Program-made: the position numbers and the translations under genes | Shown here: positions 10,382 to 63,151 of the stretch, one piece after another | Position numbering within the stretch: the first letter of the stretch is position 1 | Layout: every line of letters begins with the position of its first letter | Source of the DNA: Synechococcus sp. PCC 7336 | GTDB lineage: Bacteria; Cyanobacteriota; Cyanobacteriia; Thermostichales; PCC-7336 | Direction of reading: 5' to 3' | Length of the DNA stretch: 64,000 nucleotides | Assembly (NCBI RefSeq): GCF_000332275.1 | Contig: NZ_CM001776.1 | Span: 558,001-622,000, forward strand | The notes under the pieces: generated by a model | What the model saw: the letters and a program-made list of their open reading frames with translations, nothing else | What the model was told of the DNA's origin: nothing | Databases searched by the model: none

Positions 10382-10451
10382 AGCGGAGACTTATGTTTCC
10401 GTTCACTCCTCACACCTTGTTCCGCCTGACGTGTAGTCGGGCGGTTTTTTT
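10382..10451 (+). ncRNA. yfr1: Yfr1 small regulatory RNA
   Basis: The roughly 70-nt region has the Yfr1 layout. A 5' stem (CGGAGAC, loop TTAT, GTTTCCG) is followed by an unpaired stretch holding the conserved ACTCCTCACAC motif (10404-10414). A 3' terminator hairpin closes it (10422-10444) with a T run. The motif and the two-hairpin frame are the diagnostic features of Yfr1, an abundant cyanobacterial RNA. It is known to pair with outer-membrane protein mRNAs in Prochlorococcus. A matching promoter lies just upstream. It is in the gap between the second M16 gene and a convergent pentapeptide-repeat gene. Confidence 0.88.
10422..10451 (+). terminator. Rho-independent terminator of Yfr1
   Basis: Stem arms CCGCCTGAC (10422-10430) and GTCGGGCGG (10436-10444) pair with one G-U, around a GTGTA loop. 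A run of seven T residues follows. Confidence 0.85.
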
Positions 10452-37404: not shown

Positions 37405-37427
37405 CCGTACCTCGCAGATAAATCAGG

Positions 37428-37606
37428 TTAGTGCCATCGGCGGGCATTCTGACTGAGGCAAATGCTGACTTTAAGAGAGGGCTAGAAGGTTAGCCATCTG
37501 ACAGCATTCAGTTTTGCCAATACAGTTGCGGGACAGCGGCAGATTTGCACTGCTCTTTCCCCGTTTCCTCTAGCGGCCGATCCCCGCTAGAACCGATGAA
37601 GTAGCG
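37428..37606 (-). promoter_or_regulatory. Cobalamin (AdoCbl) riboswitch controlling hupE
   Basis: On the minus strand the leader contains GAGGAAACGGGG. The core follows (GTGCAAATCTGCCGCTGTCC and CGCAACTGTA, plus-strand about 37521-37556). The B12 box AGTCAGAATGCCCGCC is at 37438-37454, some 30 bases before the hupE start. Spacing and order match the class-I cobalamin riboswitch. Binding of adenosylcobalamin would shut off hupE. Confidence 0.9.
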
Positions 37607-37880
37607 CCATCGTATCACTCTTCGCAGAGAGACAAAATTGAGATTCATTATGTGAAGAAATGTGAAATGGCGCTCGTGTGTCCACTGTCGGTTCGAACAT
37701 TTTTCATGGTGTAACAGAATTTTCTTTTCTGCAATCGCGCACTAGATGTAGGGTATCTAAAAATCGGTATCCATACGCTCGCATCAAGAAGAGAGCCACC
37801 CACACTACTGGACCCATTGCTAGATCGGCAGAAGCGATCGGAGGCATTGGATCTAGGATAGGAGCATGCTCAGCTAGGCA
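37607..37880. other. Intergenic region upstream of a small exported-protein gene
   Basis: This holds the hupE promoter on one strand and that of the next gene on the other. I see no RNA gene or repeat. Confidence 0.4.
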
Positions 37881-44759: not shown

Positions 44760-47700
44760 ATGACTGAACAATTTTCGCCCGAACTCCAGGATGCGGTTTT
44801 GGATTCCGAACCCACCGCCCATGCAGTGGAGCTGAGCGATCGCCTCATCGAGGCTGTCAAGCAAGTACCTGCAGTAACTGGGTTCTCGGTGCGAGACAAA
44901 TTCGAGCAGCGGCATATCGGGCCGAGCGAGGCCGAGATCGAACAGATGTTAGAGCAGTTGGGGGATAGCTCCCTCGATGCGCTGATGGATCGCGTCCTGC
45001 CTCAGTCCATTCGGATGGAGAGGGAGCTGAATCTGCCAGACGGGGCCAGCGAGCGGGAGGCATTGAATCAATTAAGGGCGATCGCCGAGAAGAATCAAGT
45101 CTGGCGATCGTTTATCGGCAGCGGCTACTACAACTGCATTACCCCGCCCGTCATCCAGCGCAATATTCTCGAAAATCCCGGCTGGTATACCCAATACACC
45201 CCCTATCAGGCCGAGATCGCTCAGGGTCGGTTGGAGGCACTGCTGAATTTCCAGACGATGGTGTGCGATCTGACCGGCATGGAATTGGCCAACGCCTCTC
45301 TATTAGACGAAGCGACAGCGGCGGCTGAAGCAATGGCGATGAGCTTGCATGCGGTGGGAAAGAAAGCTGCGAGGGCATATTTTGTGGCAGATGACTGCCA
45401 TCCTCAGACGATCGCAGTGGTGCAAACGCGGGCCGAGCCCTTGAGGATTGAGGTAATTGTGGGCGATCGCCGCTCGTTTGACTTCGACGCCACACCCGTG
45501 TTTGGGGCGCTGTTGCAATATCCGGCGACGGACGGAACAGTGTTTGACTACAGCGACTTTGTGGAGCGCGCCCATAGGGCGAAGGCTTTGGTTGCCGTTG
45601 CCGCCGATCCTCTGGCACTGACGCTGCTGGAGCCGCCAGGTGAATTTGGCGCAGATATTGCGGTGGGGAATACGCAGCGGTTTGGGGTGCCTTTAGGCTA
45701 TGGCGGACCTCACGCGGCCTATTTTGCCACAAAGTCCAAGTATGCCCGACAGATGCCCGGACGCATGGTGGGAGTGTCGCAGGACGTGGATGGCAAGCCA
45801 GCACTGCGGTTGGCCCTGCAGACGCGAGAGCAGCACATTCGCCGAGATAAGGCGACCAGTAATATCTGTACCGCTCAGGTGTTGTTGGCGGTGATGGCGA
45901 GTATGTATGCCGTCTACCACGGACCGGAGGGGCTGCAGCGCATTGCAACGCGGGTGCATAGTTTGACAATGCTGTTTGCGGCGGGCGTGCAGCAATTGGG
46001 CTATGCGATCGCCTCCTCCAGCGTTTTCGATACGGTGCAGGTGCAGTTGGGGAATGTCCCGGTGGGGGAGATTGTGGCAGCGGCGGCAGAGCGGCGGATT
46101 AACCTGCGGCAGATGGGCGATCGCGCCATCTGCGTTTCCCTCGACGAAACCAGCTCCGTCGAGGATCTCGAAGATTTATTGGCGATCTTTGCCTTGGGCC
46201 AACAGCCCGTTCCTAGCGCGATCGACTTGGCCCAGTCGGAAGCGGTGCAGGCGATCGACCGACAGTCTGCCGCTCGGGCTCGCAGCAGCGAGTACTTAAC
46301 AAATCCAGTTTTCAATCAATACCATTCTGAAACCGATCTGCTGCGGTATTTACATCGCCTGCAGGCAAAAGACCTCTCCCTGACCACCTCGATGATTCCG
46401 CTGGGCTCCTGCACCATGAAGCTCAATGCCACAGCGGAAATGATGCCGGTGACTTGGCCGGAATTCGGTCAGATCCATCCGTTTGCACCCATCGAACAGG
46501 CTGAAGGCTATCGCATCCTGTTCGATCGATTGGAAAGGGATTTGGCAGAAATTACCGGTTTTGCAGGGATTTCGCTGCAGCCGAATGCGGGGTCGCAGGG
46601 GGAATATGCGGGACTGCTGGCGATTCGGGCCTATCACCAACAGCGGGGGGAGGGCGATCGCCACATTTGCTTAATTCCCGATTCTGCCCACGGCACTAAC
46701 CCCGCCAGTGCGGTGATGGCAGGTATGAAGGTGGTGGTGGTGAAGTGCGATCGCGACGGCAATATTGATGTGGAGGATCTGCGGGCGAAGGCGGAACAAC
46801 ACAGTGCCCATTTGGCGGCACTCATGGTCACCTATCCCTCCACCCACGGCGTCTTCGAGTCGAGTATTCGAGATGTCTGCGAGATTATCCACAGCCACGG
46901 CGGCCAGGTGTATATGGATGGAGCCAATCTCAACGCTCAGGTGGGGTTGTGCCGCCCGGGGGATATCGGTGCGGATGTCTGCCACTTGAATTTGCACAAA
47001 ACTTTCTGCATTCCCCACGGCGGCGGCGGTCCGGGCATGGGGCCGATTGGAGTAGCGGCGCATCTGGTGCCGTTTTTGCCCGCGCACCCCTTGGTGGAGA
47101 TGGGCAGCGAGGGAACTTCGCCGGTGTCGGCGGCTCCTTGGGGCAGTGCCAGTATTCTGCCGATTTCCTGGATGTACGTCCGCATGATGGGGGCTGCCGG
47201 GTTGAAACGAGCGACGCAGGTGGCGATTTTGAATGCCAATTACATGGCAAAGCGGCTGGAGTCCTATTACCCCGTTTTGTATAAAGGGGACTCGGGGTTA
47301 GTGGCCCACGAGTGCATTCTCGATTTGCGTCCTTGCAAGAAGCTGGCCGGGATTGAGGTGGACGATATTGCGAAGCGGCTGATGGATTATGGTTTCCACG
47401 CTCCGACGATTTCTTGGCCGGTGGCGGGGACGATGATGGTGGAGCCGACGGAGAGCGAGTCTAAGGCGGAACTCGATCGCTTCTGCGATGCCATGATTTC
47501 AATTCGCCGAGAGATTGACGCGATCGCCGCCGGTACCTCCGATCCGAAAGACAATCCGCTCAAGCAGGCTCCCCATACGGCAGCAGCGGTGACGGCGAAT
47601 GATTGGCCCCATACCTATTCCCGCGAGCAGGCGGCTTATCCGGCTCGCTGGACGCGGGAACACAAGTTTTGGCCTGCGGTGCGGCGCATTGATAATGCGT

Positions 47701-47762
47701 TTGGCGATCGCAATCTCGTCTGCTCCTGTTTGTCCATCTCTGCGTATGCCGACGACGAGTAG
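44760..47762 (+). CDS. gcvP: Glycine dehydrogenase (decarboxylating), P-protein of the glycine cleavage system
   Basis: The 1000-residue protein is of the single-chain (homodimeric) type, with two related halves. The N-terminal half begins [17 protein letters not shown]. The C-terminal half holds the PLP lysine K747 in [20 protein letters not shown]. It decarboxylates glycine and loads the methylamine onto GcvH, in photorespiratory and one-carbon metabolism. No gcvT or gcvH is adjacent. The last ~25 codons (ending [15 protein letters not shown]) recur twice downstream. Confidence 0.96.
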
Positions 47763-47810
47763 AAGGCGGAGCTGCAATAGCTCTCCTCAATCGCGGATGT
47801 GTGAGAAGGA

Positions 47811-48257
47811 TTAGGGGTTCGGGATCGCTTCGGGATGAAATACAGTGATTTCTGCGAACCGCTCGAAGTCCTCCACATTGAACGTCAGGATGTGTGTTAA
47901 TCCATGCACGAGCATTGCCGCTACCAGCCGCGTATCGTGTACTTGAATGCCCTTAACGCTGTAGCTGACGACCAGCCGACGCCATTGGCGGTAAATGTCT
48001 CGCTCGCTGCCAGTAAATACTGTGAAAGCATTCTCAATGGCCTGCAACTTTCGAGCCGTAACGGCAGATGTCAGCCCCAAGCCATTCTGTTGTAAGGGGC
48101 GCGTGCAAACATTCCAGAATTCAGCGGCAACTTGCGGAACAATCCCCAGTTCATAACCTTGCTGCTCCAAAGTTTTGACGGCATTGTTGGCAGCGGTGAA
48201 TTGCCTCTGCTGCGGTTGTTGCGCGCGCAGCAGTACGTTCGTATCAACCAGGTACAT
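47811..48257 (-). CDS. PIN-domain toxin (VapC-like ribonuclease)
   Basis: From the ATG at 48257 (MYLVDTNVLLRAQQ) the protein is 148 residues. PIN-domain acidic residues appear in VDTNVLLR, the central AEFWNVCTRP helix, VHDTRLVAAMLVHG and FNVEDFERF. It would be a magnesium-dependent ribonuclease. Its start overlaps the stop of the upstream antitoxin gene by one base (TGATG), the normal tight coupling. It converges with gcvP, with about 50 bases between. Confidence 0.88.
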   Translation of the reverse strand: MYLVDTNVLLRAQQPQQRQFTAANNAVKTLEQQGYELGIVPQVAAEFWNVCTRPLQQNGLGLTSAVTARKLQAIENAFTVFTGSERDIYRQWRRLVVSYSVKGIQVHDTRLVAAMLVHGLTHILTFNVEDFERFAEITVFHPEAIPNP

Positions 48258-48514
48258 CAAGCCCGCTCATCGTTATACATGTTCTCGCGACTCAGGGCGT
48301 AATCCGACAGCGGCGGCGCATCCGATAGGGGCTCAGAGGTAAACTTTTCCCACGCTTGTAGGCGCTTCTCAATTTCTTCTGGGGATAGCGTACCCGTTCC
48401 GCCTTTCGACTCGCCATCCTCATCCAGAACAATCACCCGCACTCGGTGTTTTTCAAATTCACTGGCATGGGACAAAACTTCTTCCCAGGTGCCTTCTACA
48501 GCGTGGTAATGCAT
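48257..48514 (-). CDS. Antitoxin partner of the PIN-domain toxin
   Basis: From the ATG at 48514 (MHYHAVEGTWEEVLSHASEF) the protein is 85 residues. It begins with a segment resembling the small cyanobacterial antitoxins that have a short N-terminal fold (HRVRVIVLDED). The C-terminal half is acidic and probably disordered (LQAWEKFTSEPLSDAPPLSD), which would wrap the toxin. The longer open frame adds 15 residues lacking similarity. It is tightly coupled to the toxin gene. Confidence 0.75.
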   Translation of the reverse strand: MHYHAVEGTWEEVLSHASEFEKHRVRVIVLDEDGESKGGTGTLSPEEIEKRLQAWEKFTSEPLSDAPPLSDYALSRENMYNDERA

Positions 48515-48560
48515 CGGACAACTCCAAACAGTTTCGAGGAGACTTGGGAGAAAAGCCATC

Positions 48561-48985
48561 TACTGATGGATAGTCTCACCGGGATTCTAACCGGTCTGCT
48601 GGACTCAGTAGGCACTTCACAACCCCAACGACAAGTTTATGCCGACCCTGATGAGCGCGATTTTTCGCTATGCAGCTATGACGGCAAGCAAGGTGGATTT
48701 CAGCGACTCCAGTTGTCATGAGCTTGTGAGTGCTCTTGGGGATTGCATCAATAATGCTTTTGGCGATCGCAATCTCGTCTGCTCCTGTTTGTCTATCTCT
48801 GCGTATGCCGACGACGAGTAGAGAGTAGAAGACAGTCGAGATCGTTCTCTGGGCTCTGATGGTATCTCAGCTCTTCTACACTGTCGCGCAGTCCTTGACT
48901 GCTACAGAGAGCTTGAGGCCTAGCTGTTCGAGAATGGCTGTCAAGCTCGAAAGTTGGGGGTTACCTTGCTCCGATAAGATGCGAT
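48561..48985. repeat. Direct repeat unit A (~425 bp) flanking a toxin-antitoxin module
   Basis: Begins TACTGATGGATAGTCTCACC and ends near TCCGATAAGATGCGAT. It shares clear similarity along its length with unit B (49572-49985). In order it holds ~190 bp of unknown sequence, a copy of the gcvP 3' end (48748-48822), and the 3' part of the antitoxin gene. Confidence 0.85.
48748..48822 (+). pseudogene. Second copy of the gcvP 3' end
   Basis: From AATAATGCTTTTGGCGATCG through the stop codon this matches the last ~24 codons of gcvP nearly base for base (translation ...[17 protein letters not shown]). It is detached from any gcvP body. Confidence 0.9.
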
Positions 48986-49181
48986 ACATCGATTCCCGAT
49001 TCAGGTCGGCTTGCTTCGCTAGTCTTGTTATGCCGTGTGCCTCGGCTACATTCCGCAGCGCCATGAGGAAGATCTCATTCGAGCTTTCTTCCAAGGCCGC
49101 GTTCAAATATGCAACCGCTTCTTCAGGATCTTGAAGCGCTTTGAGTAGTTCCTGCTTGTACGGTCTCGATGCTTTGGTCAT
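48876..49181 (-). CDS. XRE/HigA-like antitoxin
   Basis: From the ATG at 49181 (MTKASRPYKQELLKALQDPE) the protein is 101 residues. It belongs to the addiction-module antidote family with a helix-turn-helix in the C-terminal half (GITRLAKQADLNRESMYRIL, then LSSLTAILEQLGLKLSV). It overlaps the upstream toxin gene by four bases, in the toxin-first order of HigBA-type modules. Its last ~35 codons lie inside direct repeat A and recur as a fragment in repeat B. Confidence 0.88.
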   Translation of the reverse strand: MTKASRPYKQELLKALQDPEEAVAYLNAALEESSNEIFLMALRNVAEAHGITRLAKQADLNRESMYRILSEQGNPQLSSLTAILEQLGLKLSVAVKDCATV

Positions 49182-49516
49182 AACTCGCGAGCTCTGTAAT
49201 CTTGCCAATACTCTCTGGCCTTGTCGATATCTTTTTGTTGAGCTTTTTTCGTTCCACCGATTAGAAGTAGAATCACTCGATTGTCAACTTCCGCAACATA
49301 AATACGATACCCAGGCCCAACATCAATTCTCAGTTCGCGCAAATGGCCACTAAGAGCGCGATAATCACCAAAGTTACCCAAACTAAGACGGTCTAAGCGA
49401 ACTCGAATCTTAGCTCGGGTTTTCCGATCTTTAAGAGCATTGAACCATTCGCTGAAAGGCGATCGCCCAGCAAGTGTGACATATTCTTCAATGTCCCTCG
49501 GAGTAGCTGTACTCAC
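49178..49516 (-). CDS. RelE/HigB-like toxin
   Basis: The 112-residue protein is of the addiction-module killer type. It carries GRSPFSEWFNALKDRKTRAKI, then RLDRLSLGNFGDYRALSGHLRELRID (split here as two motifs), then GPGYRIYVAEVDNRVILLLIGG and KKAQQKDIDKAREYW. Its fold should be a RelE-like mRNA interferase. It is the first gene of a two-gene unit with its antitoxin and is bracketed by the ~420-bp direct repeats. Confidence 0.88.
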   Translation of the reverse strand: MSTATPRDIEEYVTLAGRSPFSEWFNALKDRKTRAKIRVRLDRLSLGNFGDYRALSGHLRELRIDVGPGYRIYVAEVDNRVILLLIGGTKKAQQKDIDKAREYWQDYRAREL

Positions 49517-49757
49517 ATCACCAAAGTAGCTTAGAAACTACGATATTACTAGCTAGGGAGATGTGGCCGAGTACTGATGGATAGTCTCACCGGGATTCTA
49601 ACCGGTCTGCTGGACCCAGCAGGCCACTTCACAACCCTAACGATAAGTTTATGCCGCTCCTAGTGGCCGCGGTTTTTGTGCTCTCCAGCTATGGCGGCAA
49701 GGTAGATTTAAGCGATTCCAGTCGCCATGAGTTTGGGAGTGCTCTTGGGGGCTGCAT

Positions 49758-49855
49758 CAATGATGGCTTTGGAAGATCGCAATCTCGTCTGCTCCCGTTT
49801 ATCCATCTCTGCGTATGCCGACGACGAGTAGCAAGCGGAGCTGCGATCGCTCTAT
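49758..49855 (+). pseudogene. Third copy of the gcvP 3' end
   Basis: GATCGCAATCTCGTCTGCTC onward to the stop codon repeats the gcvP tail. Like the original it continues with GCGGAGCTGC after the stop, a feature the second copy lacks. It is more diverged in its first bases. Confidence 0.88.
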
Positions 49856-49879
49856 GGGCTCTGGATGGTATCTATACAT

Positions 49880-49985
49880 ACTGTCGCGGAGTCCTTGACT
49901 GCTACAGAGAGCTTGAAGCCTAGCTGTTCGAGAATGGCTGTCAAGCTCGAAAGTCGTGGGTTACCTGGCTCCGATAACGTGCGAT
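49880..49985 (-). pseudogene. C-terminal fragment of a second HigA-like antitoxin
   Basis: Read on the minus strand this gives RTLSEPGNPRLSSLTAILEQ, then LGFKLSVAVKDSATV. It is nearly identical to the end of the intact antitoxin at 48876-49181. The N-terminal two thirds are missing, and sequence upstream does not continue the gene. It indicates that the module, or its end, was once duplicated in tandem. Confidence 0.8.
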
Positions 49986-50143: not shown

Positions 50144-52627
50144 ATGAAAACTCTATTAGGGCAGGTCGTCGAGACCCATCCTATAGTTGTGACTCCAGAG
50201 ATGCCTCTGCCAGAGGCGATCGCCATCTGCGTAACCGATCCTAACGGCGAACGAGATTCCAATTGCGCTCTCGAGACCGACGGCTTTTTCAAACTCTCTT
50301 CCATGAGTGGGAGGCAAGCAAGTCGAATAAAGTCTTCTTGTGCAATTGTAGCCAACGATGATGGCCCCATTGGAATGCTATCGATTTGTGAGATCTTATC
50401 CTTTGTTGCATCTGAAAAGAACTGGGAAGAAATTAAGATCGAAAGTTTAGCATTACAACCGATTGTCACTCTAATAAAGTCAGAAATCGAGAATATTTAT
50501 TCCATCATAACGTTATTTAAAAAGAGCCAAGTTTCATATTTGGTTATCATAAACAACCAAAATAATATTGTTGGAGCTATTTCTCAAGAAAGATTGTTTC
50601 AGGTCTTAGATTCAGCGGCTGTGATGAGTGAATTGAAGGATGATATACGAGTGACTCGGTCGGTGATACCACTTTCTAACGGTTCTCAGCGGCCAGTCAG
50701 CCAGCCAGCGAGGGTACATCGAAGGCAATATCTAACTCACTCTCCTAAGCACCTTAAAGCAAAAAGTCGCAATTCTGATTTCACAAAGAATCGTCAATTC
50801 AAAAAAAACTCTAGACATACATCGAAATGGATTACTAGAAATTTTAAGCGTTCTAAAAGAGATGAGCTTCGGCTTCAGCACCAACGAGCTAAGCTATTCT
50901 CTGAAGTTACACTCAAGATCCAGCAATCTTTACAGTTAAATGAAATCATTAACACGGCTGTCAGAGAAGTAAAGAGAATTCTACAGGTCGATCGCGTCCT
51001 CATCTATCAGGTTTTTCCCAATGGCACGGGGAGAATCATCAGTGAAGCTGTCTTGCCGATATACCCAGAAACATTAGGAGTTGATTTTCCAGAAGAAGTC
51101 TTTCCGACTGACTATCAGGAACTCTATAGCCAGGGCCGCATCCAGTCTATCCCCAATATTCACGATCCACATTTAGAAATTGCGGAGTGCCTGATTGATT
51201 TCTTAGAAGCCTGGAAAGTCAGAGCCAAGCTAGTCGTACCTATATTGCAAAATATTAATTCACCTTCCCCAACCCATAACCGGCAGTCTCATACCCAGAA
51301 TCACCTTTGGGGACTCTTGATTGCTCATCAGTGTCGCAGCCCTCGCCAATGGACTAATTTTGAGCTGGAACTCATGCAAGAATTAGCCAATCAGATTGGC
51401 ATTGCCATTTCACAAGCGCAGTTACTGGAAAATTTAGAGGAGATTGTTGCCGAGCGTACTTCTGAATTGACTCGAGCAAACATAAACCTTCAACAGGAAA
51501 TTGACGCTCGAATGAAAACTGAGGAAGCACTTCGTCGCAGCGAAGAACAACTGCGATTGATTACCAATGCGCTACCTGCTTTGATTGCTTATGTAGACGA
51601 TCGCCAATACTATCGCTTTAACAATAAAACCTACGAAACCTGGTTTGGACATGCGAATTTAGGACTCGATCGCCATCATATTAAAGATGTTCTTGGAGAA
51701 GAATTTTACCGAGAAAACTATAAGTATATTGAAGCAGTGCTGTCGGGTAAAACCGTCACCTATGAGGGCGAAATCAAAACAATTGGCGATCGCATGCGTT
51801 CTGTAAGTGTCACCTATATACCTCATATAGATGGAGAAGGAGATGTCAAAGGATTCTTTTCTCTCACCAGCGATATTAGCGATCGCAAAGCGGTAGAACG
51901 TATGAAAGATGAATTCATCACGATTGTGAGCCACGAATTACGTACCCCGCTAACATCTATCCACGGATCGCTGACGTTACTCGCCTCAGGTCGTCTGGGA
52001 ACTCTTTCAGCCAAAGGGCAACGAATGCTTGAAATTGCCGATGAAAGTACCAAGCATTTAGTCCGCCTAGTCAATAATATTTTAGATTGGCAGCGGATGG
52101 AATCTGGAAAAGTTGCGATGGAAAAACGGCTCTGTAATGCTGCCGACTTAATGGAGCAAGCTCTAGAGGCAATGCAGACAACGGCTCAACAACATCAAGT
52201 TTTACTTGAAATCAAACCTCTTGAGGTCGAGATATCTGTAGATCCTGACTTTATGATTCAAGCTTTTACAAATCTGTTGAGTAATGCGATTAAGTTTTCA
52301 GAGCCCAATAGCAAGGTTTGGATGATTGCTAAGATCCTAGATGACTGCAGTGGATTGAAAATACAGCATGATTCCATCGACTCGGGGCCTTATGTAAGGT
52401 TTGAAGTAAGAGATGAAGGCCAAGGGATTCCGAGTGATAAGCTAGAGAGCATCTTTGAACGGTTTCAGCAAGTTGATACTTCTGACTCTCGCAAGAAGGG
52501 AGGTACGGGGTTAGGACTCGCGATCTGTCGGAAGATTATCGAACAACATGAAGGACAGATTTGGGTTGAAAGCTCAATAGGGAAAGGGAGCAGTTTTTAT
52601 TTCATATTACCGTCAATGTCTAAATAA
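50144..52627 (+). CDS. rcaE: RcaE-like hybrid photosensor histidine kinase with N-terminal CBS pair
   Basis: From the ATG at 50144 (MKTLLGQVVETHPIVV) the protein is 827 residues; the open frame extends 26 codons upstream. Domains: two CBS-like units (about 1-160), a basic linker, a GAF domain (about 255-425), a coiled-coil, a PAS domain (about 465-585), and HisKA with H597 in SHELRTP. A HATPase domain with DEGQGIPSD and GGTGLGLAICR ends it. The GAF has the bilin-type context and a cysteine, C349, in IAECLIDFLEAWKVRAKLVV, where cyanobacteriochromes attach their chromophore; Cys-Leu replaces the common Cys-His. No DxCF cysteine is present. GAF-PAS-kinase and the following genes match the RcaE-RcaF-RcaC relay of type 3 chromatic acclimation. 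The CBS pair is unusual. Confidence 0.85.
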   Translation: MKTLLGQVVETHPIVVTPEMPLPEAIAICVTDPNGERDSNCALETDGFFKLSSMSGRQASRIKSSCAIVANDDGPIGMLSICEILSFVASEKNWEEIKIESLALQPIVTLIKSEIENIYSIITLFKKSQVSYLVIINNQNNIVGAISQERLFQVLDSAAVMSELKDDIRVTRSVIPLSNGSQRPVSQPARVHRRQYLTHSPKHLKAKSRNSDFTKNRQFKKNSRHTSKWITRNFKRSKRDELRLQHQRAKLFSEVTLKIQQSLQLNEIINTAVREVKRILQVDRVLIYQVFPNGTGRIISEAVLPIYPETLGVDFPEEVFPTDYQELYSQGRIQSIPNIHDPHLEIAECLIDFLEAWKVRAKLVVPILQNINSPSPTHNRQSHTQNHLWGLLIAHQCRSPRQWTNFELELMQELANQIGIAISQAQLLENLEEIVAERTSELTRANINLQQEIDARMKTEEALRRSEEQLRLITNALPALIAYVDDRQYYRFNNKTYETWFGHANLGLDRHHIKDVLGEEFYRENYKYIEAVLSGKTVTYEGEIKTIGDRMRSVSVTYIPHIDGEGDVKGFFSLTSDISDRKAVERMKDEFITIVSHELRTPLTSIHGSLTLLASGRLGTLSAKGQRMLEIADESTKHLVRLVNNILDWQRMESGKVAMEKRLCNAADLMEQALEAMQTTAQQHQVLLEIKPLEVEISVDPDFMIQAFTNLLSNAIKFSEPNSKVWMIAKILDDCSGLKIQHDSIDSGPYVRFEVRDEGQGIPSDKLESIFERFQQVDTSDSRKKGGTGLGLAICRKIIEQHEGQIWVESSIGKGSSFYFILPSMSK

Positions 52628-52672
52628 AAATTTCTATATCAAAAAATTTCTATATCAAAAAATTCTGTATCA
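52626..52672. repeat. Three short AT-rich tandem copies between rcaE and rcaF
   Basis: AAATTTCTATATCAA occurs twice in full, and a third copy reads AAATTCTGTATCAA. They fill the 53-base gap between the two genes. Confidence 0.85.
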
Positions 52673-52680
52673 ACATTTCT

Positions 52681-53067
52681 ATGAGTGCCAAGCAACTATT
52701 ACTGATTGATGACGAGCCAACCATTCAAGAAGTGGTTAAAATCAGCTTGGAGTTAGAGTCAGACTGGATAATCTTATTGGCTTCTTCAGGATCGGAGGGT
52801 ATCAAAAAGGCTGAGGCTGAGCAGCCGGATGCTATTTTGCTAGATGTTATGATGCCAGATATGGATGGTATTGCAACCTTTGAGAAGTTAAGAGACAACA
52901 GTAAAACCCAAACAATCCCTGTTGTATTTTTGACTGCAAAGGCTCGAACTGCACAAGAATTTCAACCCATGAATCTTGGTATATCAGGTATTATTACTAA
53001 ACCTTTCAACTCGCTTCAGCTTGCCAGCCAAATTGCCAAAATATTGGGATGGCGCTTGAAATCTTAA
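52681..53067 (+). CDS. rcaF: RcaF-like single-domain response regulator
   Basis: The 128-residue protein is a lone receiver domain. Acidic pocket D10-D11-E12, phosphorylated D55 (AILLDVMMPD), Thr85 (FLTAKA) and K107 (ITKPF) are all present. There is no output domain, so it should act as a phosphate shuttle. Size and position between an RcaE-like kinase and an RcaC-like regulator match RcaF, which relays phosphate from RcaE to RcaC. It lies 53 bases after rcaE and 28 bases before rcaC, so the three are probably one operon. Confidence 0.87.
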   Translation: MSAKQLLLIDDEPTIQEVVKISLELESDWIILLASSGSEGIKKAEAEQPDAILLDVMMPDMDGIATFEKLRDNSKTQTIPVVFLTAKARTAQEFQPMNLGISGIITKPFNSLQLASQIAKILGWRLKS

Positions 53068-53095: not shown

Positions 53096-54997
53096 ATGAG
53101 AATTCTCCTGATTGATGACGATCTTGCTTTGATTGATGCACTGACATTATCTCTGACTGAGCTGCACTATACAGTCGATGCTGTCACTGATGGAGAAGCA
53201 GGTTGGTCCTATGGATCGACTCTTGACTACGATCTCATCGTCCTGGATTGGATGCTGCCAAAAATTGATGGGATCAGCCTTTGTCGCCGTTTGCGTGCTA
53301 AAGGCTGTCTCGTGCCTATCCTTCTCATCACAGCTCGCAGCAGTAGTCCGGACAAAGTGATTGGGCTCGATGCCGGAGCTGATGACTATGTCATTAAGCC
53401 CTTTGATTTTGAAGAGCTAGTCGCTCGCATTAGGGCGTTGCTCAGACGCACCCATGCTAATCCAGAGCTGATATTTAGCTGGGAAAATTTGAAACTCGAC
53501 CCGCGCAGTTGTGAAGTCACTTATAACGACGAGCTTGTGTCTCTCACAGCTAAAGAGTATGCTCTTTTAGAGCTCTTTTTACGCCGAAGACAGCATATTT
53601 TTAGTATTAGTTCTATTATTGATAATCTTTGGCCTTCAGAGAGTTGTCCTGCCGATGCCACCGTCAGATCCCATTTGAGGGGTCTGCGTCGAAAGCTGCG
53701 AGAATCAGGGGCTCCCTCCGATACAATTGAAACAGTGAATGGCATTGGCTATCGTTTAAAGGCTCCGCCCAAAGTTAATAGAACGACCACTCCATTCCTT
53801 CTTGACCTGCCGAGAAAATCTGAAAGCCGCCAGAAGCACTTTGAAGCTCTAGCAACTGTCTGGCAAAAGCACAAAGCAACAAATCTCAAATATTTAACAC
53901 GGCTCGAGCAATTACTGAGTGCTCCACTCAAAAAGCCTATCCACGATAAGTATTGGGATGAGGCTAGATCCATCGCTCATACATTAGCGGGTACTTTAGG
54001 GACATTTGGTTTCGCTGAAGGGTCCCGATTGGCTCGCGAATTAGAGTCCTTATTAACCTCCTCCGAACGCCATCAAAATATTGCTTCGATCGCCTTACCG
54101 GTGGTTACAGCTGTACGGTATGAACTTGAAAGAAGCCAGCTCGCAGACAGCGACGAGCGATCGCTTGAAGAATCAACGCAGCTCGCGATTATTGGTCGAG
54201 ATGATATTTTCACTCAACAGCTTTTGACAGAGGCCAATTCTCGCGGTATAGAAGTACTTGTTTGGCCTACACTATCAGAGGCTAAACGCTTTTTATCTCA
54301 GAGCTCTCGGCCCAAACAACCTTTGCAGACTGAGAGCACGTGTAAGGCGTTACCCGCTATTGTTCTCATGTCTAGTATGCCAGAAATGGATTGTGAAAGT
54401 TCGAGCGATCGAGCTCAGCTCTTTGCAGACTTCATCGCTTTAGATTCATTGCTTCAGGTCTTTGTTGTTTCAGAGAAAGATAGTCTGAGCGATCGACTTG
54501 AAGTGACTCGCCGAGGTGGAAAATTCTTGTGTAGGCAAATGACCAACTCGGCTCAATTAATCGATCTAGCTTGGCAAAGTATTCTGCCAGCTTCGAATGA
54601 AGAGACAACTATATTGGCAATGGATGACGATCCACAATTTTTGAGTATGCTGGCACCATTACTAAAACCTTGGGGGCTCAAGCCAATTACCCTCAGTGAT
54701 GCGATCGATTTTTGGGCAGTTCTCAAGGCCGTTAGGCCGAGGCTATTGCTACTGGATGTTGAAATGCCGACTGTGAATGGTATCGATTTATGCAAGATGC
54801 TGAGATGCGATCCCGCTTGGAGCCAGCTTCCCATCTTATTTGTGAGTGCGCACGCAGACTCGGAAACGCAACATCGAGCTTTTGCGATCGGCGCTGATGA
54901 TTATATTTGTAAACCTGTCCGAGGTCGCGAGTTGGCCACTCGGATTCTCAACCGCCTCGAGCGCGTCAGGAGCTTGCAATCAGCTCAGCATGTCTAA
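53096..54997 (+). CDS. rcaC: RcaC-like multidomain DNA-binding response regulator
   Basis: The 633-residue protein has this order: receiver 1 (D51 in VLDWMLP, K101 in YVIKPF), an OmpR-type winged helix (about 128-223, SLTAKEYALLELF), and an HPt domain with H295 (RSIAHTLAGTLGTFGF). A degenerate region (about 360-495) and receiver 2 (D554 in LLLDVEMP, K606 in YICKPV) follow. This is the special architecture of RcaC. From memory, RcaC is about 650 residues with key residues D51, H316 and D576; the H-to-D spacing (259 here, 260 there) agrees. It should bind L-box elements. Two such elements lie downstream, before pcyA and cpcB. Confidence 0.9.
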   Translation: MRILLIDDDLALIDALTLSLTELHYTVDAVTDGEAGWSYGSTLDYDLIVLDWMLPKIDGISLCRRLRAKGCLVPILLITARSSSPDKVIGLDAGADDYVIKPFDFEELVARIRALLRRTHANPELIFSWENLKLDPRSCEVTYNDELVSLTAKEYALLELFLRRRQHIFSISSIIDNLWPSESCPADATVRSHLRGLRRKLRESGAPSDTIETVNGIGYRLKAPPKVNRTTTPFLLDLPRKSESRQKHFEALATVWQKHKATNLKYLTRLEQLLSAPLKKPIHDKYWDEARSIAHTLAGTLGTFGFAEGSRLARELESLLTSSERHQNIASIALPVVTAVRYELERSQLADSDERSLEESTQLAIIGRDDIFTQQLLTEANSRGIEVLVWPTLSEAKRFLSQSSRPKQPLQTESTCKALPAIVLMSSMPEMDCESSSDRAQLFADFIALDSLLQVFVVSEKDSLSDRLEVTRRGGKFLCRQMTNSAQLIDLAWQSILPASNEETTILAMDDDPQFLSMLAPLLKPWGLKPITLSDAIDFWAVLKAVRPRLLLLDVEMPTVNGIDLCKMLRCDPAWSQLPILFVSAHADSETQHRAFAIGADDYICKPVRGRELATRILNRLERVRSLQSAQHV

Positions 54998-55006
54998 TAT
55001 CGATCG

Positions 55007-55024
55007 CTACACGCCATTTGCACA
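55007..55024 (+). promoter_or_regulatory. L-box-like direct repeat upstream of pcyA
   Basis: CTACACG-CCAT-TTGCACA has the 7-N4-7 form of the RcaC-binding L box (as I recall, TTGCACA-N4-TTGCACA). The second half is exact; the first matches at four of seven positions. It ends about 43 bases before the pcyA start and overlaps no gene. Confidence 0.65.
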
Positions 55025-55066: not shown

Positions 55067-55831
55067 ATGTACGCTACCCTGCCACCATCCTTCTTGCGGG
55101 AACGCGAGCCATCGTTGCGAGATCGTCAGCACGACCTGATTCGCAAGCTTGCCAATTGTATTGAGACGGTCTGGCACCGCCAGCTAACGCTATTGCCTTA
55201 TAGCGTTCCTCCTGGGCTTGGCTATATTGAGGGGCAACTTGAAGAAGATCGCCTGACAATCGAAAATCACTGCTATCAGACATCGCAGTTTCGCAAGCTT
55301 CATTTGGAACTTGCACGAGTTGGCAATAACCTCGATATTTTGCACTGTGTCATGTTTCCGAGATCTCAATACCCCCTACCAATCTTCGGTACGGATATTG
55401 TTGTGGGACCCAAGGGAGTTAGTGCTGCGATTGTCGATCTTTCTCCCGTGACATCCGATCTCTCTTTACCTTCAGCCTATAGCCAAGCATTGTCTTCTCT
55501 TCCCGCCGTGCAATTTTCCGAGCAACGCAATTTACCGATCTGGGGCGATATCTTTTCAAAATTTTGTCTCTTTGTCCGCCCGCACGATGCCTGTGAAGAG
55601 GCTGCATTTCTGCAGCGAGTCCAGAGCTACTTGACATTGCACTGCACAATTGCGGTCGAGACGTCGCCCAGTTCTTCAGAGCAGCAGCAGAACGAGATCC
55701 TGTCGGGTCAAAATCATTACTGCACTAAGCAGCGCCAAAATGATAAGACTCGGCGGGTGTTAGAAAAGTCCTTTGGGGTAGAGTGGACCGAGCGATACCT
55801 GCAAAAAATGCTGTTTGACTGCAATTCATAA
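55067..55831 (+). CDS. pcyA: Phycocyanobilin:ferredoxin oxidoreductase
   Basis: The 254-residue enzyme reduces biliverdin IXalpha to phycocyanobilin, the chromophore of phycocyanin and of many cyanobacteriochromes. Conserved segments are LGYIEGQLEEDRLTIENHCY, FRKLHLELARVG, ILHCVMFP, FGTDIVVGPKGVSAAI and NDKTRRVLEKSFGVEW. By spacing E81, H93 and D110 correspond to the catalytic E76, H88 and D105 of the Synechocystis enzyme. It lies between rcaC and cpcB, with an L-box-like repeat in front, so it is probably co-regulated with phycocyanin. Confidence 0.95.
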   Translation: MYATLPPSFLREREPSLRDRQHDLIRKLANCIETVWHRQLTLLPYSVPPGLGYIEGQLEEDRLTIENHCYQTSQFRKLHLELARVGNNLDILHCVMFPRSQYPLPIFGTDIVVGPKGVSAAIVDLSPVTSDLSLPSAYSQALSSLPAVQFSEQRNLPIWGDIFSKFCLFVRPHDACEEAAFLQRVQSYLTLHCTIAVETSPSSSEQQQNEILSGQNHYCTKQRQNDKTRRVLEKSFGVEWTERYLQKMLFDCNS

Positions 55832-56377
55832 GCAGTTCGATCCGTCAAAGCTGAATTTATCGTAATGGGTTTTACTCTGCTAGCCGAGCTCGCCCTGAAG
55901 CTGGCTCGCTCTGATTCGCGATCGAGCTTTGAACTCAGACTAGCTCGATCGGCGTTGTTTTTGGCTCGCTGGCCAATCTGCCAGAGGTCTCGCAGCGATG
56001 CTGGAAAGGCAATTCGCCGAGCTGGCACAGCTCGAGTGACTCAATAAAACTTCACTGTTTTCTCAGGATTCTGCACGCCATCTGCACGGTCGGCCTGTTT
56101 AAATGAGCGTGGTCCAAAAGCCATTACCACCTTCCTCTTTCCCAAGCTAGTTGGGATACCGCCTTATTCAAGCTAGGGAAGTGGCTGGCATGGTTTCGAT
56201 CCCGTCAGGTTACGGTTGACGAGCTCTCCCAAAAGTTCGGCATTTTTTCATGTCTCTTGGCGGGATTGGGATCGTCAGAACATGAGCAATCGCAGTATGT
56301 TTTTATGCTGTTTTGGCTCAAAAATTTAACGGATGTGAATCCAAGTCTTAGAACTCTTTTTGATAGGAGAAATCTTA
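55832..56377. other. cpc promoter and leader region
   Basis: The 546 bases between pcyA and cpcB contain no convincing gene. Besides the L-box-like repeat, CAAGCTAG occurs twice (about 56141 and 56169) in an AT/CT-rich leader, and CTTTCCC/GGGAAG could pair across it. A strong GGAGAA ribosome-binding site lies just before cpcB. Confidence 0.5.
56071..56088 (+). promoter_or_regulatory. L-box-like direct repeat upstream of cpcB
   Basis: CTGCACG-CCAT-CTGCACG is a perfect direct repeat with the 7-N4-7 form of the L box; each half matches TTGCACA at five positions. The CCAT spacer is the same as in the pcyA copy. A TTAAAT (56099-56104) ten bases downstream could be the -10 region, which would give a leader of about 270 bases. 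Confidence 0.72.
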
Positions 56378-56896
56378 ATGTTTGACGCCTTTACTAGGGT
56401 GATCTCCCAAGCTGATACTCGAGGTGCCTACATTGGCGATGCAGAAATCAGCGCGCTAAATCAACTTGTCGCCGACGGCAATAAGCGTATTGATGTTGTC
56501 AATCGTATTACCGGCAATTCTTCAACGATTGTGGCGAATGCTGCCCGAGCTCTGTTTGCCGAGCAACCCGCCTTAATCGCCCCTGGCGGCAATGCCTATA
56601 CCAACCGCCGCATGGCTGCTTGCTTGCGCGACATGGAAATCATTCTTCGCTATGTCACTTACGCAGTCTTTACCGGTGACGGCAGCGTTTTAGAAGATCG
56701 TTGCCTTAACGGCCTCAGAGAAACCTATACCGCATTAGGCGTTCCTGGTGCTTCTGTTGCAGAAGGCGTTAACAAAATGAAGGCGGCTGCAGTTGCGATC
56801 GCCAACGATCCAGAGGGAATTACCCGTGGCGATTGCAGCAGCTTAATGTCAGAGTTGGGCAGCTACTTCGATAAAGCAGCAGCAGCAGTTGGCTAA
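56378..56896 (+). CDS. cpcB: C-phycocyanin beta subunit
   Basis: From the ATG at 56378 ([13 protein letters not shown]) the protein has the canonical 172 residues. Chromophore cysteines are C82 ([12 protein letters not shown]) and C153 (TRGDCSSL). N72, the asparagine methylated in phycobiliproteins, is in GGNAYTNRR. With CpcA it forms the hexameric discs of phycobilisome rods. The six extra codons of the open frame upstream are not needed. It is the first gene of a cpc operon and has an L-box-like site far upstream. Confidence 0.97.
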
Positions 56897-56980: not shown

Positions 56981-57469
56981 ATGAAGACTCCACTCACTGA
57001 AGCAGTGGCTGCAGCCGATTCTCAAGGTCGTTTTCTCAGTTCAACTGAGCTCCAGGCAGGGTTTGGTCGTTTGCGCCAAGCTGCATCTGGCCTTCAAGCA
57101 GCTCAAGCGCTCAGCTCAAAAGCAGATAGCTTGACGAATGGCGCTGCTAATGCCGTGTATCAGAAGTTTCCCTACACCACTCAGATGCAGGGTTCGAACT
57201 ATGCTTCTACGCCTGAAGGCAAGGCGAAATGCGCTCGGGATATTGGCTACTACCTGCGCATGGTGACCTACTGCCTGATCGCTGGCGGCACCGGACCGAT
57301 GGACGATTACTTGATTTCGGGGATTGCTGAAATCAACAGCACCTTCGAGCTATCGCCCAGTTGGTATGTTGAAGCCCTCAAGTACATCAAGGGAAATCAT
57401 GGTTTGAGCGGCGATGCTGCTGTCGAAGCCAATTCCTATCTCGACTATGCGATTAATGCATTGAGCTAA
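56981..57469 (+). CDS. cpcA: C-phycocyanin alpha subunit
   Basis: The 162-residue protein starts [17 protein letters not shown]. It carries the phycocyanobilin cysteine C84 and D87 in [20 protein letters not shown]. The C-terminus [11 protein letters not shown] is typical. An RBS GGAATAAC precedes the ATG at 56981, 84 bases after cpcB. It pairs with CpcB as the alpha-beta monomer. A long hairpin follows 11 bases after the stop. Confidence 0.97.
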
Positions 57470-58011: not shown

Positions 58012-58830
58012 GTGGCAATTACTGAAGCAGCCTCTCGTCTCGGTACCTCAGCCTTCAGCGAAATGAGCCCGATCGAATTGCGCCCCAACCAGAGTCGGGA
58101 AGATGCTGAAGCCATCATTCGAGCGGTATACCGACAGGTTTTGGGCAACGATCATCTGATGGCGTCGGACCGATTGGTCAGTGCTGAATCGTTGTTGCGA
58201 GAAGGCTATATTAGCGTTCGTGACTTTGTTCGCAATGTGGCTAAGTCGGAGCTATACAAACAAAAGTTCTTTTACCCCAATTACCATCCTCGCGTCATTG
58301 AGTTGAATTTCAAGCATCTTTTGGGTCGCGCTCCCTACGATGAGTCTGAGATCGTCGAGCATCTCGACCGCTATCAAAACGAAGGGTTTGAGGCAGATAT
58401 TGACTCTTATATTGATTCAGCCGAATATGCTGAAAGCTTTGGCGACTCTATCGTTCCTTACTATCGAGGATTCTCGACACAAAAGGGGCAAAAAACTGTT
58501 GGCTTTACTCGCATGTTCCAGTTATATCGAGGCTATGCCAATAGCGATCGCGCTCAAGGAAATGGCAAGCGCTCTCGATTGACCTACGAGCTAGCCTGCA
58601 ATACCTCGACACCCGTTCAAAGAGAGCCCCAAATGGCAGCACTCGTTGGCACGACTTCGACTGCTCGCGGGAAGCTCTATCGCTTGGTCGTGACGCAAGC
58701 AGGGGTTGCAGGCATGCCTCAGACCCGGCGCAGTTTGAGTGAATATCTCGTGTCTTACGAGCAACTCTCGCCGACTCTACAAAAACTGAACAAGCGGGGT
58801 AGCAAGATTATTAGTTTAACCCCTGCTTAA
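58012..58830 (+). CDS. cpcC: Phycocyanin-associated rod linker (CpcC type), copy 1
   Basis: The 272-residue protein starts from a GTG at 58012. It has a PBS-linker domain (about 20-165: [68 protein letters not shown]). A basic linker and a C-terminal CpcD-like domain (about 222-272, [20 protein letters not shown], ending SLTPA) follow. It connects phycocyanin hexamers within rods. It begins a group of three closely related genes. Confidence 0.95.
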
Positions 58831-59135: not shown

Positions 59136-60005
59136 GTGGCAATTACGGTGGCAGCATCCCGCTTAGGGACTATTGCTTACGATGGTGAAGCTGTCTTTGA
59201 ACTACGACCACAATCGACGAAGAAAGAGGCTGAGCCGATTATTCGGGCTGCATACCGACAGGTATTGGGCAATGACTATATTATGACCTCCGAGCGGCTA
59301 GTCGGTGCCGAGTCGCTATTGTGTAACGGCTCGATCTCGGTGCGAGACTTTATTCGTACTATAGCCAAATCGGAGTTATATAAGAAAAAGTTTCTTTATT
59401 CAAATTTTCAGACTCGTACCATTGAGTTGAACTTTAAGCACTTATTAGGTCGTGCCCCCTACGACGAGTCAGAAGTTACCGAGCATCTCGACCTTTATCA
59501 AAATAAGGGATTTGAGGCCGAGATTGATTCCTATATCGATTCAGCCGAATATGAAGAGAACTTTGGCGATTCTATTGTTCCTTACTATCGAGGATTTTCG
59601 ACTCAAACTGGCCAAAAGATGGCTGGATTTCCCCGCATGTTCCGCCTTTATCGGGGGTATGCCAATAGCGATCGCTCTCAAGCGGAGGGGGCTGCTCCCC
59701 GTCTGGCCAGCGAACTAGGACAGAATAAAGTCTCGCCTGCGATCGCCCCTTCGGGAGGCAGCAATGGCTGGTCTTATCGCGCCTCCAAACGCAACGTCCC
59801 TCAAAGTCGAAATTTTGCCAGGACCACAACTACAGACTCGGCAGGACGTCTGTATCGGGTTGAAGTTGCGGGCCTTTGTAAGCCTGGCTATCCTAAAATT
59901 CGCAGAAGCAGCAGGGCTTATGTTGTGTCTTACGAGCAACTGTCTCCCACGCTCCAGCGAATCAACAGTCTGGGGGGAAAGGTTGCTAGCATTACGCCAG
60001 CCTAG
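59136..60005 (+). CDS. cpcC: Phycocyanin-associated rod linker (CpcC type), copy 2
   Basis: The 289-residue protein from a GTG at 59136 has the same domains as copy 1. These are the PBS-linker domain ([40 protein letters not shown]) and a CpcD-like domain ([20 protein letters not shown]) separated by a longer Ser/Gly-rich linker. The leader sequence before it nearly repeats that before the small cpcD gene, so the genes arose by tandem duplication. Two rod linkers plus a cap imply rods of about three hexamers, as in the inducible phycocyanin operon of type 3 acclimators. Confidence 0.95.
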
Positions 60006-61753: not shown

Positions 61754-63151
61754 TCAACGGGCAATTTCCATCTGATGTTTGGCTCGAAACGTCGAGTCGC
61801 AGGTCTGCAACCACCGCTGGGCCAGTTGGGTTTGACTGCCCCAATGGACGTGCAAATAAGAAGCATGAACTTGTTCCGTACCCCAGCCTTCCCGGCGATC
61901 GTCCCAGCGATAAATCTCCCCGCGATAAATCTCCCCGCGATAAATCTCCCCGCGATAAATCTCCCTTGCGACTGGCGAGACACAGACTGAATGGTGAAAC
62001 TCGTGTCCGCGCACCGTCTCGCCCGCGCGAATCATGGGCGAATCGGCGATCGCCGTGGCCGACCGGTAACCCAGCGTCAGTCTGTGGGTCATTTGTGTGG
62101 AATAGGGCAATTGCCCTGCCATCGGATAGGTCTTGCCCTCGCGATCGTCCAACTGTTGACCCAGCACCATCAAGCCGCCGCATTCGGCATAGATAATCGG
62201 CAGGTAATCGGGCAGCGGATGGGCTTGCAATTGTTCCGACAACTGCGCTGCAAACACTTCGGGAAAGCCACCCCCCAAATACAAACCGCTGCAATCGTCC
62301 AACTTGCTAAACCCAGAGTCTAACGGCGAAAACTCCTGCAGGTTTGCACCCAGATGTTCCAGTAAATCTAGGTTGTCGGCGTAGTAGAAATTGAAGGCAG
62401 CATCGCGGGCCACAGCGATCGTGGGATGTGCCCTCCCCGGCACCACATCGGGCCAGAGCGATCGCGGTTGGGGTAATGCCTGCACCAAGGGCAGCAGCAG
62501 ATCCCAATTGAGTGACACTTCGGCCAGTTGAGCGAGGCGATCGAGCCTGCGGGAAAAATTCGCTTGTTCCCCTGCAGGCACCAACCCCAAATGGCGGCTG
62601 GGCATGTGAATGTCTGGGGTGGAATAGACAATCCCTAGAACGGGAATGTGGAGGGGGGCGATCGCCTCCTGCAACAATTGGGCGTGACGGGGGGAACCGA
62701 CCCGGTTGAAGATAATTCCGGCGATCGCCACGCGAGGGTCGAACTGCATCAGACCGTAGGCGATCGCCGCCACCGTCCGCCCCACTTTTTGGGCATCTAA
62801 CACTAGGACGGTGGGGAGATCGAGCAGCCGCGATACGTGGGCAGTACTGGCAAAATCGTCGGCCCCCACCTTGCCATCGAATAAGCCCATCACCCCTTCG
62901 ACTACAGCAGCATCTTTGCCCTGGCAGTGGTAAGCAAAACAGCGCCGCACGTAGTCTTCAGAGGTTAAAAACGGGTCCAGATTGCGGCAAGGCAGCTGGG
63001 TTGCCGCCCAATGGAGGCCGGGATCGATATAGTCCGGTCCCACCTTAAAGGACTGCACGCGCAAGCCGCGTCGCTGCAAAGCGGCCAGCAATGCCAGCGC
63101 AATCGTCGTTTTGCCACTGCCGCTAGCGGCAGCAGCGATCGCGATCGCCAC
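61754..63151 (-). CDS. cobB/cbiA: Cobyrinic acid a,c-diamide synthase
   Basis: The 465-residue protein has a P-loop near its start (AAAASGSGKTTIALAL), KVGPDYIDPGLH, EGVMGLFDGKVG, and a class-I glutaminase domain. Its nucleophile Cys lies in YAECGGLMVLG and a conserved His in GHEFHHSVC. It amidates the a and c side chains of cobyrinate using glutamine and ATP. The start is a GTG overlapping the cobO stop by one base. Near the C-terminus an in-frame 15-nt repeat inserts four EIYR units, most likely in a surface loop. Confidence 0.95.
   Translation of the reverse strand: MAIAIAAAASGSGKTTIALALLAALQRRGLRVQSFKVGPDYIDPGLHWAATQLPCRNLDPFLTSEDYVRRCFAYHCQGKDAAVVEGVMGLFDGKVGADDFASTAHVSRLLDLPTVLVLDAQKVGRTVAAIAYGLMQFDPRVAIAGIIFNRVGSPRHAQLLQEAIAPLHIPVLGIVYSTPDIHMPSRHLGLVPAGEQANFSRRLDRLAQLAEVSLNWDLLLPLVQALPQPRSLWPDVVPGRAHPTIAVARDAAFNFYYADNLDLLEHLGANLQEFSPLDSGFSKLDDCSGLYLGGGFPEVFAAQLSEQLQAHPLPDYLPIIYAECGGLMVLGQQLDDREGKTYPMAGQLPYSTQMTHRLTLGYRSATAIADSPMIRAGETVRGHEFHHSVCVSPVAREIYRGEIYRGEIYRGEIYRWDDRREGWGTEQVHASYLHVHWGSQTQLAQRWLQTCDSTFRAKHQMEIAR
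61907..61965. repeat. Four in-frame copies of a 15-bp unit inside cobB
   Basis: GCGATAAATCTCCCC repeats at 61907, 61922, 61937 and 61952 (the last truncated by one base). It encodes EIYRG repeats in CobB without breaking the frame. Confidence 0.95.

Follow-up and report, generated by a model that had tools for sequence, protein, structure and literature searches.

A CBS pair in place of the N-terminal PAS domain in a probable RcaE photosensor of Synechococcus sp. PCC 7336

The gene located at 50144-52627 (+, stop codon included) of the window, i.e., of the whole 64-kb stretch of Synechococcus sp. PCC 7336 DNA analysed here, probably codes for the photosensor kinase of a complementary chromatic acclimation (CA3-type) cluster. 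We estimate at about 0.75 the probability that it is an rcaE gene whose product has a normal photocycle and carries a CBS pair, instead of the N-terminal PAS domain, as an accessory module. It is assigned to RcaE because RcaE structures are the nearest to its GAF domain, the bilin cysteine and the protochromic triad are invariant, and the cluster order and L boxes are those of its relatives. The presence of CBS where PAS is usual is real and seems undescribed, as no description of CBS as an RcaE domain was found in the open literature.

The rcaE gene and its N-terminal CBS pair

The 827 aa product is translated from the ATG at 50144, which is preceded by a GGAAAAGAG stretch. Residues 1-179 match the Pfam CBS profile in two stretches (E = 6.1e-9; score 36.5 bits, cut-off 24); a chance match was rejected on this basis. 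According to Pfam, the CBS pair is followed by GAF, PAS_4, HisKA and HATPase_c domains in this order; no PAS domain was found by Pfam ahead of GAF, where CBS takes its slot. The PAS_4 domain is encoded at 51566-51889 (+) and the HisKA and HATPase_c kinase module at 51902-52624 (+), with the SHELRTPL, NLLSNAIKFS, DEGQGIP and GTGLGLAI motifs intact. Another kinase encoded in the same genome (G000:C1:4218036-4219115, L002) shares 52% identity with this RcaE over the PAS-HisKA-HATPase half.

The CBS pair (Bateman module) was delimited by Pfam, AlphaFold, Foldseek and alignment to residues 1-165 (50144-50638, +). CBS1 covers approximately residues 8-90, including a disordered loop of about 30 residues (31-62), and CBS2 approximately residues 100-157. 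AlphaFold modelling of residues 1-165 from the single sequence gave a pLDDT of only 36 and was superseded by a model built with an alignment of 31 homologous CBS pairs, which has a mean pLDDT of 81.6, exceeds 90 in the cores and confines disorder to residues 37-60. The best PDB matches of this model in Foldseek were CBS pairs (OpuCA, IMPDH, ST2348 and others; probability 1.00), so the two N-terminal units are predicted to adopt the CBS-pair fold. The original prediction of a CBS pair fused to the front of an RcaE-like sensor, made from the sequence alone, is thus borne out by profile search, which matched CBS, GAF and PAS in this kinase, as well as by structure prediction and Foldseek.

Between the CBS pair and GAF lies a basic linker (residues 166-236; 50639-50851, +), recognised by alignment and without a counterpart in other CBS-type RcaE proteins. 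Residues 166-240 contain 21 lysines and arginines against four aspartates and glutamates.

GAF domain and photocycle residues

The RcaE-type bilin-binding GAF region is encoded at 50852-51433 (+). It was identified by phmmer and by its Cys349, E318, L350 and K362 residues. Among solved structures RcaE was the closest (8k9o, E 3.9e-72; RcaE 7ckv, E 9.1e-61). The window protein shares the bilin cysteine, the Glu/Leu/Lys triad, the kinase module and the partner genes rcaF and rcaC with RcaE of Fremyella (Microchaete) diplosiphon, a CA3 sensor whose GAF structure is PDB 7CKV.

The original prediction also placed the protochromic glutamate of RcaE 19 residues after the chromophore cysteine (Cys198+19) and, finding Leu368 at this distance, supposed that the photocycle might differ. 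This rested on a misremembered residue number. The triad is reportedly formed by Glu217, Leu249 and Lys261; in the 7ckv chain, glutamate is located 31 residues before the bilin cysteine, leucine immediately after it, lysine at Cys+13 and valine at Cys+19. The resulting spacings of 32 and 12 fit these residue numbers, so the bilin cysteine is presumably Cys248 and not Cys198. A gapped alignment shows the glutamate at the same distance in the window protein, with the same spacings to leucine and lysine, and Cys349 is followed by Leu350, as in the 7ckv chain. E318, C349, L350 and K362 are identical in 80/80 aligned RcaE sequences, and the position of Leu368 is occupied by leucine, valine or isoleucine in every one of these 80 rows. 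A non-RcaE photocycle caused by loss of the protochromic glutamate, for which only the counting of 19 residues past the cysteine spoke, is therefore extremely improbable and was rejected. In published work, leucine comes after the chromophore cysteine in both RcaE and CcaS (PMC9415938), and the glutamate of 7CKV is 2.7 angstroms from a pyrrole nitrogen (PMC11480761).

The rca gene cluster and its L boxes

Downstream of rcaE the gene order is rcaF-rcaC-pcyA-cpcB2A2-linker-linker, with all genes on the same strand. rcaF (52681-53067, +) codes for a single-receiver response regulator (Pfam Response_reg; synteny with other rcaE loci). A short tandem repeat AAAAATTTCTATATCA is found between rcaE and rcaF, at 52615-52682. 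The rcaC product (53096-54997, +; Pfam, synteny) comprises a receiver, an OmpR-type DNA-binding domain, an HPt domain and another receiver. pcyA (55067-55831, +) encodes phycocyanobilin:ferredoxin oxidoreductase (NCBIfam PRK02816; 347.6 bits, cut-off 206). It is followed by a second phycocyanin set consisting of cpcB (beta subunit; 56360-56896, +; TIGR01339, 309.8 bits) and cpcA (alpha subunit; 56981-57469, +; TIGR01338, 297.1 bits). The last two genes code for phycobilisome rod linkers: one at 58012-58830 (+; rod linker families, synteny) and one with a CpcD-like C-terminus at 59136-60005 (+; family search).

Motif scanning found L-box-like direct repeats in front of both pcyA (CTACACG-CCAT-TTGCACA, 55007-55024, +) and cpcB (CTGCACG-CCAT-CTGCACG, 56071-56088, +); the former occupies the same place in the CBS-type relatives. 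We take the L-box consensus to be TTGCACAN4TTGCACA. With at most one mismatch this sequence was not found anywhere in the genome, and the relaxed pattern was derived from the local repeat; the identity of the sites as L boxes is backed by the enrichment of the motif in rcaE loci. The exact YTGCACRN4YTGCACR pattern occurs once in the 5,066,637-base genome (one contig), at the cpcB site, and the window has two sites of the relaxed form where 0.13 are expected. Across 76 named rcaE loci, YTGCACRN4YTGCACR was matched 44 times in forward orientation (0.15 expected) and neither in reverse nor in the reversed control. Nine of the ten CBS-type rcaE loci have an L box, mostly just ahead of pcyA.

Phycoerythrin (cpeA) and another cpcA are encoded elsewhere in the genome. 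Under a YTGCACRN4YTGCACR-type pattern, no L box beyond chance was found by the phycoerythrin genes, so the regulon of this strain may comprise pcyA and the second cpc set only.

Other features of the window

Between gcvP and rcaE (47697-49985), a tandem duplication of roughly 1 kb has decayed; its start-to-start spacings are 1000-1059. The gcvP 3' end is present there three times (at 47697, 48756 and 49766), and part of an antitoxin-gene region occurs a second time. A toxin/antitoxin gene pair of RelE/ParE and HI1420 types is located at 48876-49516 (-), and a PIN-like pair, read by eye only, at 47811-48559 (-).

A 15-bp tandem repeat at 61902-61965 (4.3 copies, 97% match) encodes repeated YRGEI in frame within a gene at 61754-63151 (-) that reads like cobyrinate synthase. 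A cobalamin riboswitch is present at 37422-37612 (-) and the Yfr1 small RNA at 10383-10446 (+).

N-terminal regions of other RcaE proteins

For comparison we used 76 named RcaE loci, with the window counted separately as a further CBS case. The N-terminus is long and lacks CBS in 40 of them (mostly PAS-type), short, i.e., with fewer than 80 residues to GAF, in 26, and contains a CBS pair in ten (L106, L123-L125, L129, L134, L135, L138, L144 and L147). Pfam detected PAS in 39 and CBS in 11 of 51 RcaE N-termini, the window being among the 11. The long N-termini of the compared loci are thus mostly of PAS type, while that of the window protein consists of a CBS pair followed by a basic linker. 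PAS ahead of GAF is frequent in RcaE without being universal and so does not define the family.

All ten CBS-type proteins belong to one clade of Phormidesmis, Leptothoe and Adonisia type. Among 390 sampled genomes, CBS pairs of RcaE type were restricted to one family (f13) and the window; the CBS pairs of a second tier, with scores well below, belonged to numerous other cyanobacterial proteins, most of them of kinase size. The original prediction regarded the fusion as not known in characterised RcaE proteins. It does lie outside the usual architecture, but is shared by the ten loci, so the possibility that the same architecture is common among RcaE proteins holds in part, for 10/76 named loci and a single clade.

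An RcaE with nearly no N-terminus adjoins rcaF in L080, so the N-terminal slot is apparently dispensable for the family. As the slot may be filled with PAS, CBS or almost nothing, its variable content argues for an accessory role.

One CBS fusion or two

The proteins of Phormidesmis, Leptothoe, Adonisia and Leptolyngbya sp. Heron Island resemble the window in having CBS before the RcaE core, in cluster order and in L boxes. The order rcaE-rcaF-rcaC-pcyA-cpcB-cpcA-linker-linker is identical in those CBS-type relatives that have enough flank, while in some PAS-type loci cpcBA, the linkers and pcyA are placed before rcaE. The clade differs from the window in its short linker, in the absence of the CBS1 loop and in T-x-x-D in CBS1 (9/10). 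A comparable CBS1 loop is found in the N-terminal CBS pairs of other cyanobacterial sensor kinases of large size (L166, L170 and L177-L180, among others), which are different, mostly larger proteins and not rcaE products.

A single origin, with the window and the Phormidesmis/Leptothoe clade inheriting one ancestral cluster, would account for the like gene order and L-box positions and for the match between the CBS pairs in pairwise comparison (E 3e-18). It is also compatible with the RcaF-RcaC-PcyA tree, where the window, the CBS clade and a PAS-type group form an unresolved fork. In the RcaE-core tree, however, the window groups with a PAS-type group (100/96), adjacent to the CBS clade yet outside it, and the AU test rejects a single clade of the two (p 0.036). 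A profile of the clade CBS pairs gives the window 61 bits, less than the 78-103 bits of CBS pairs of unrelated kinases, and it is these kinases that the window matches in the CBS1 loop. We therefore regard a single origin as a tentative alternative and mildly favour a second, separate CBS fusion in the window lineage, as judged from sequence comparison. Every tree gives the window a long branch, and for this reason the trees do not decide between one fusion and two; with such a branch, some functional divergence of the window kinase is possible.

Possible role of the CBS pair

CBS modules are often used for sensing adenine nucleotides. The G-x-x-T/S-x-x-D motif marks the nucleotide-binding members and not the CBS fold as such. 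The motif is matched by neither unit of the window protein: in the alignment, CBS1 reads GMLSICE (S80xxE83), with glutamate replacing the usual aspartate, and CBS2 reads GAISQER, with SxxR150 instead of T/SxxD. The nucleotide site of the pair looks eroded.

A true adenine-nucleotide sensor, in which AMP, ADP, ATP or a related ligand alters kinase output and light colour is merged with energy state, thus seems unlikely in the window protein, where the CBS2 aspartate is lacking as it generally is in the aligned cyanobacterial kinases. What speaks for it is the fold, which Foldseek matches to ligand-binding CBS pairs (IMPDH with ATP, OpuCA with c-di-AMP, MJ0100 with SAM), and the T-x-x-D retained in CBS1 by most of the related clade. 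The same two observations, a maintained fold with well-predicted cores and a motif kept by relatives, count against a module that serves only structure or dimerisation and binds no small molecule. The eroded motif, the long basic linker and the tolerance of RcaE beside rcaF for a near-absent N-terminus agree with such a module, and we consider it possible, if somewhat doubtful. Still less probable than nucleotide sensing here is the broader scenario of a swappable slot that acquired CBS pairs independently in at least two lineages, adding adenylate energy sensing before antenna rebuilding.

Under the preferred reading of an rcaE with an accessory CBS pair, GAF would bind phycocyanobilin at Cys349 and toggle between green- and red-absorbing forms via the normal protochromic cycle. 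The kinase would presumably pass phosphate to RcaF and on to RcaC, which would act at the L boxes ahead of pcyA and cpcB2A2, and red light would be expected to yield more of the red-absorbing phycocyanin. The CBS pair may tune or stabilise the kinase dimer; a nucleotide, if bound at all, would probably occupy the one degenerate site in CBS1.

RcaE serves as a model light-colour sensor, and descriptions usually give it one input only. Natural variants differ in their N-terminal domain (PAS, CBS or none) but share the same core and partners; they lend themselves to a comparison of slot function, which could also show whether antenna remodelling responds to metabolism. For such tests the CBS-type clade, in which the CBS1 motif is intact, is better suited than the window protein.
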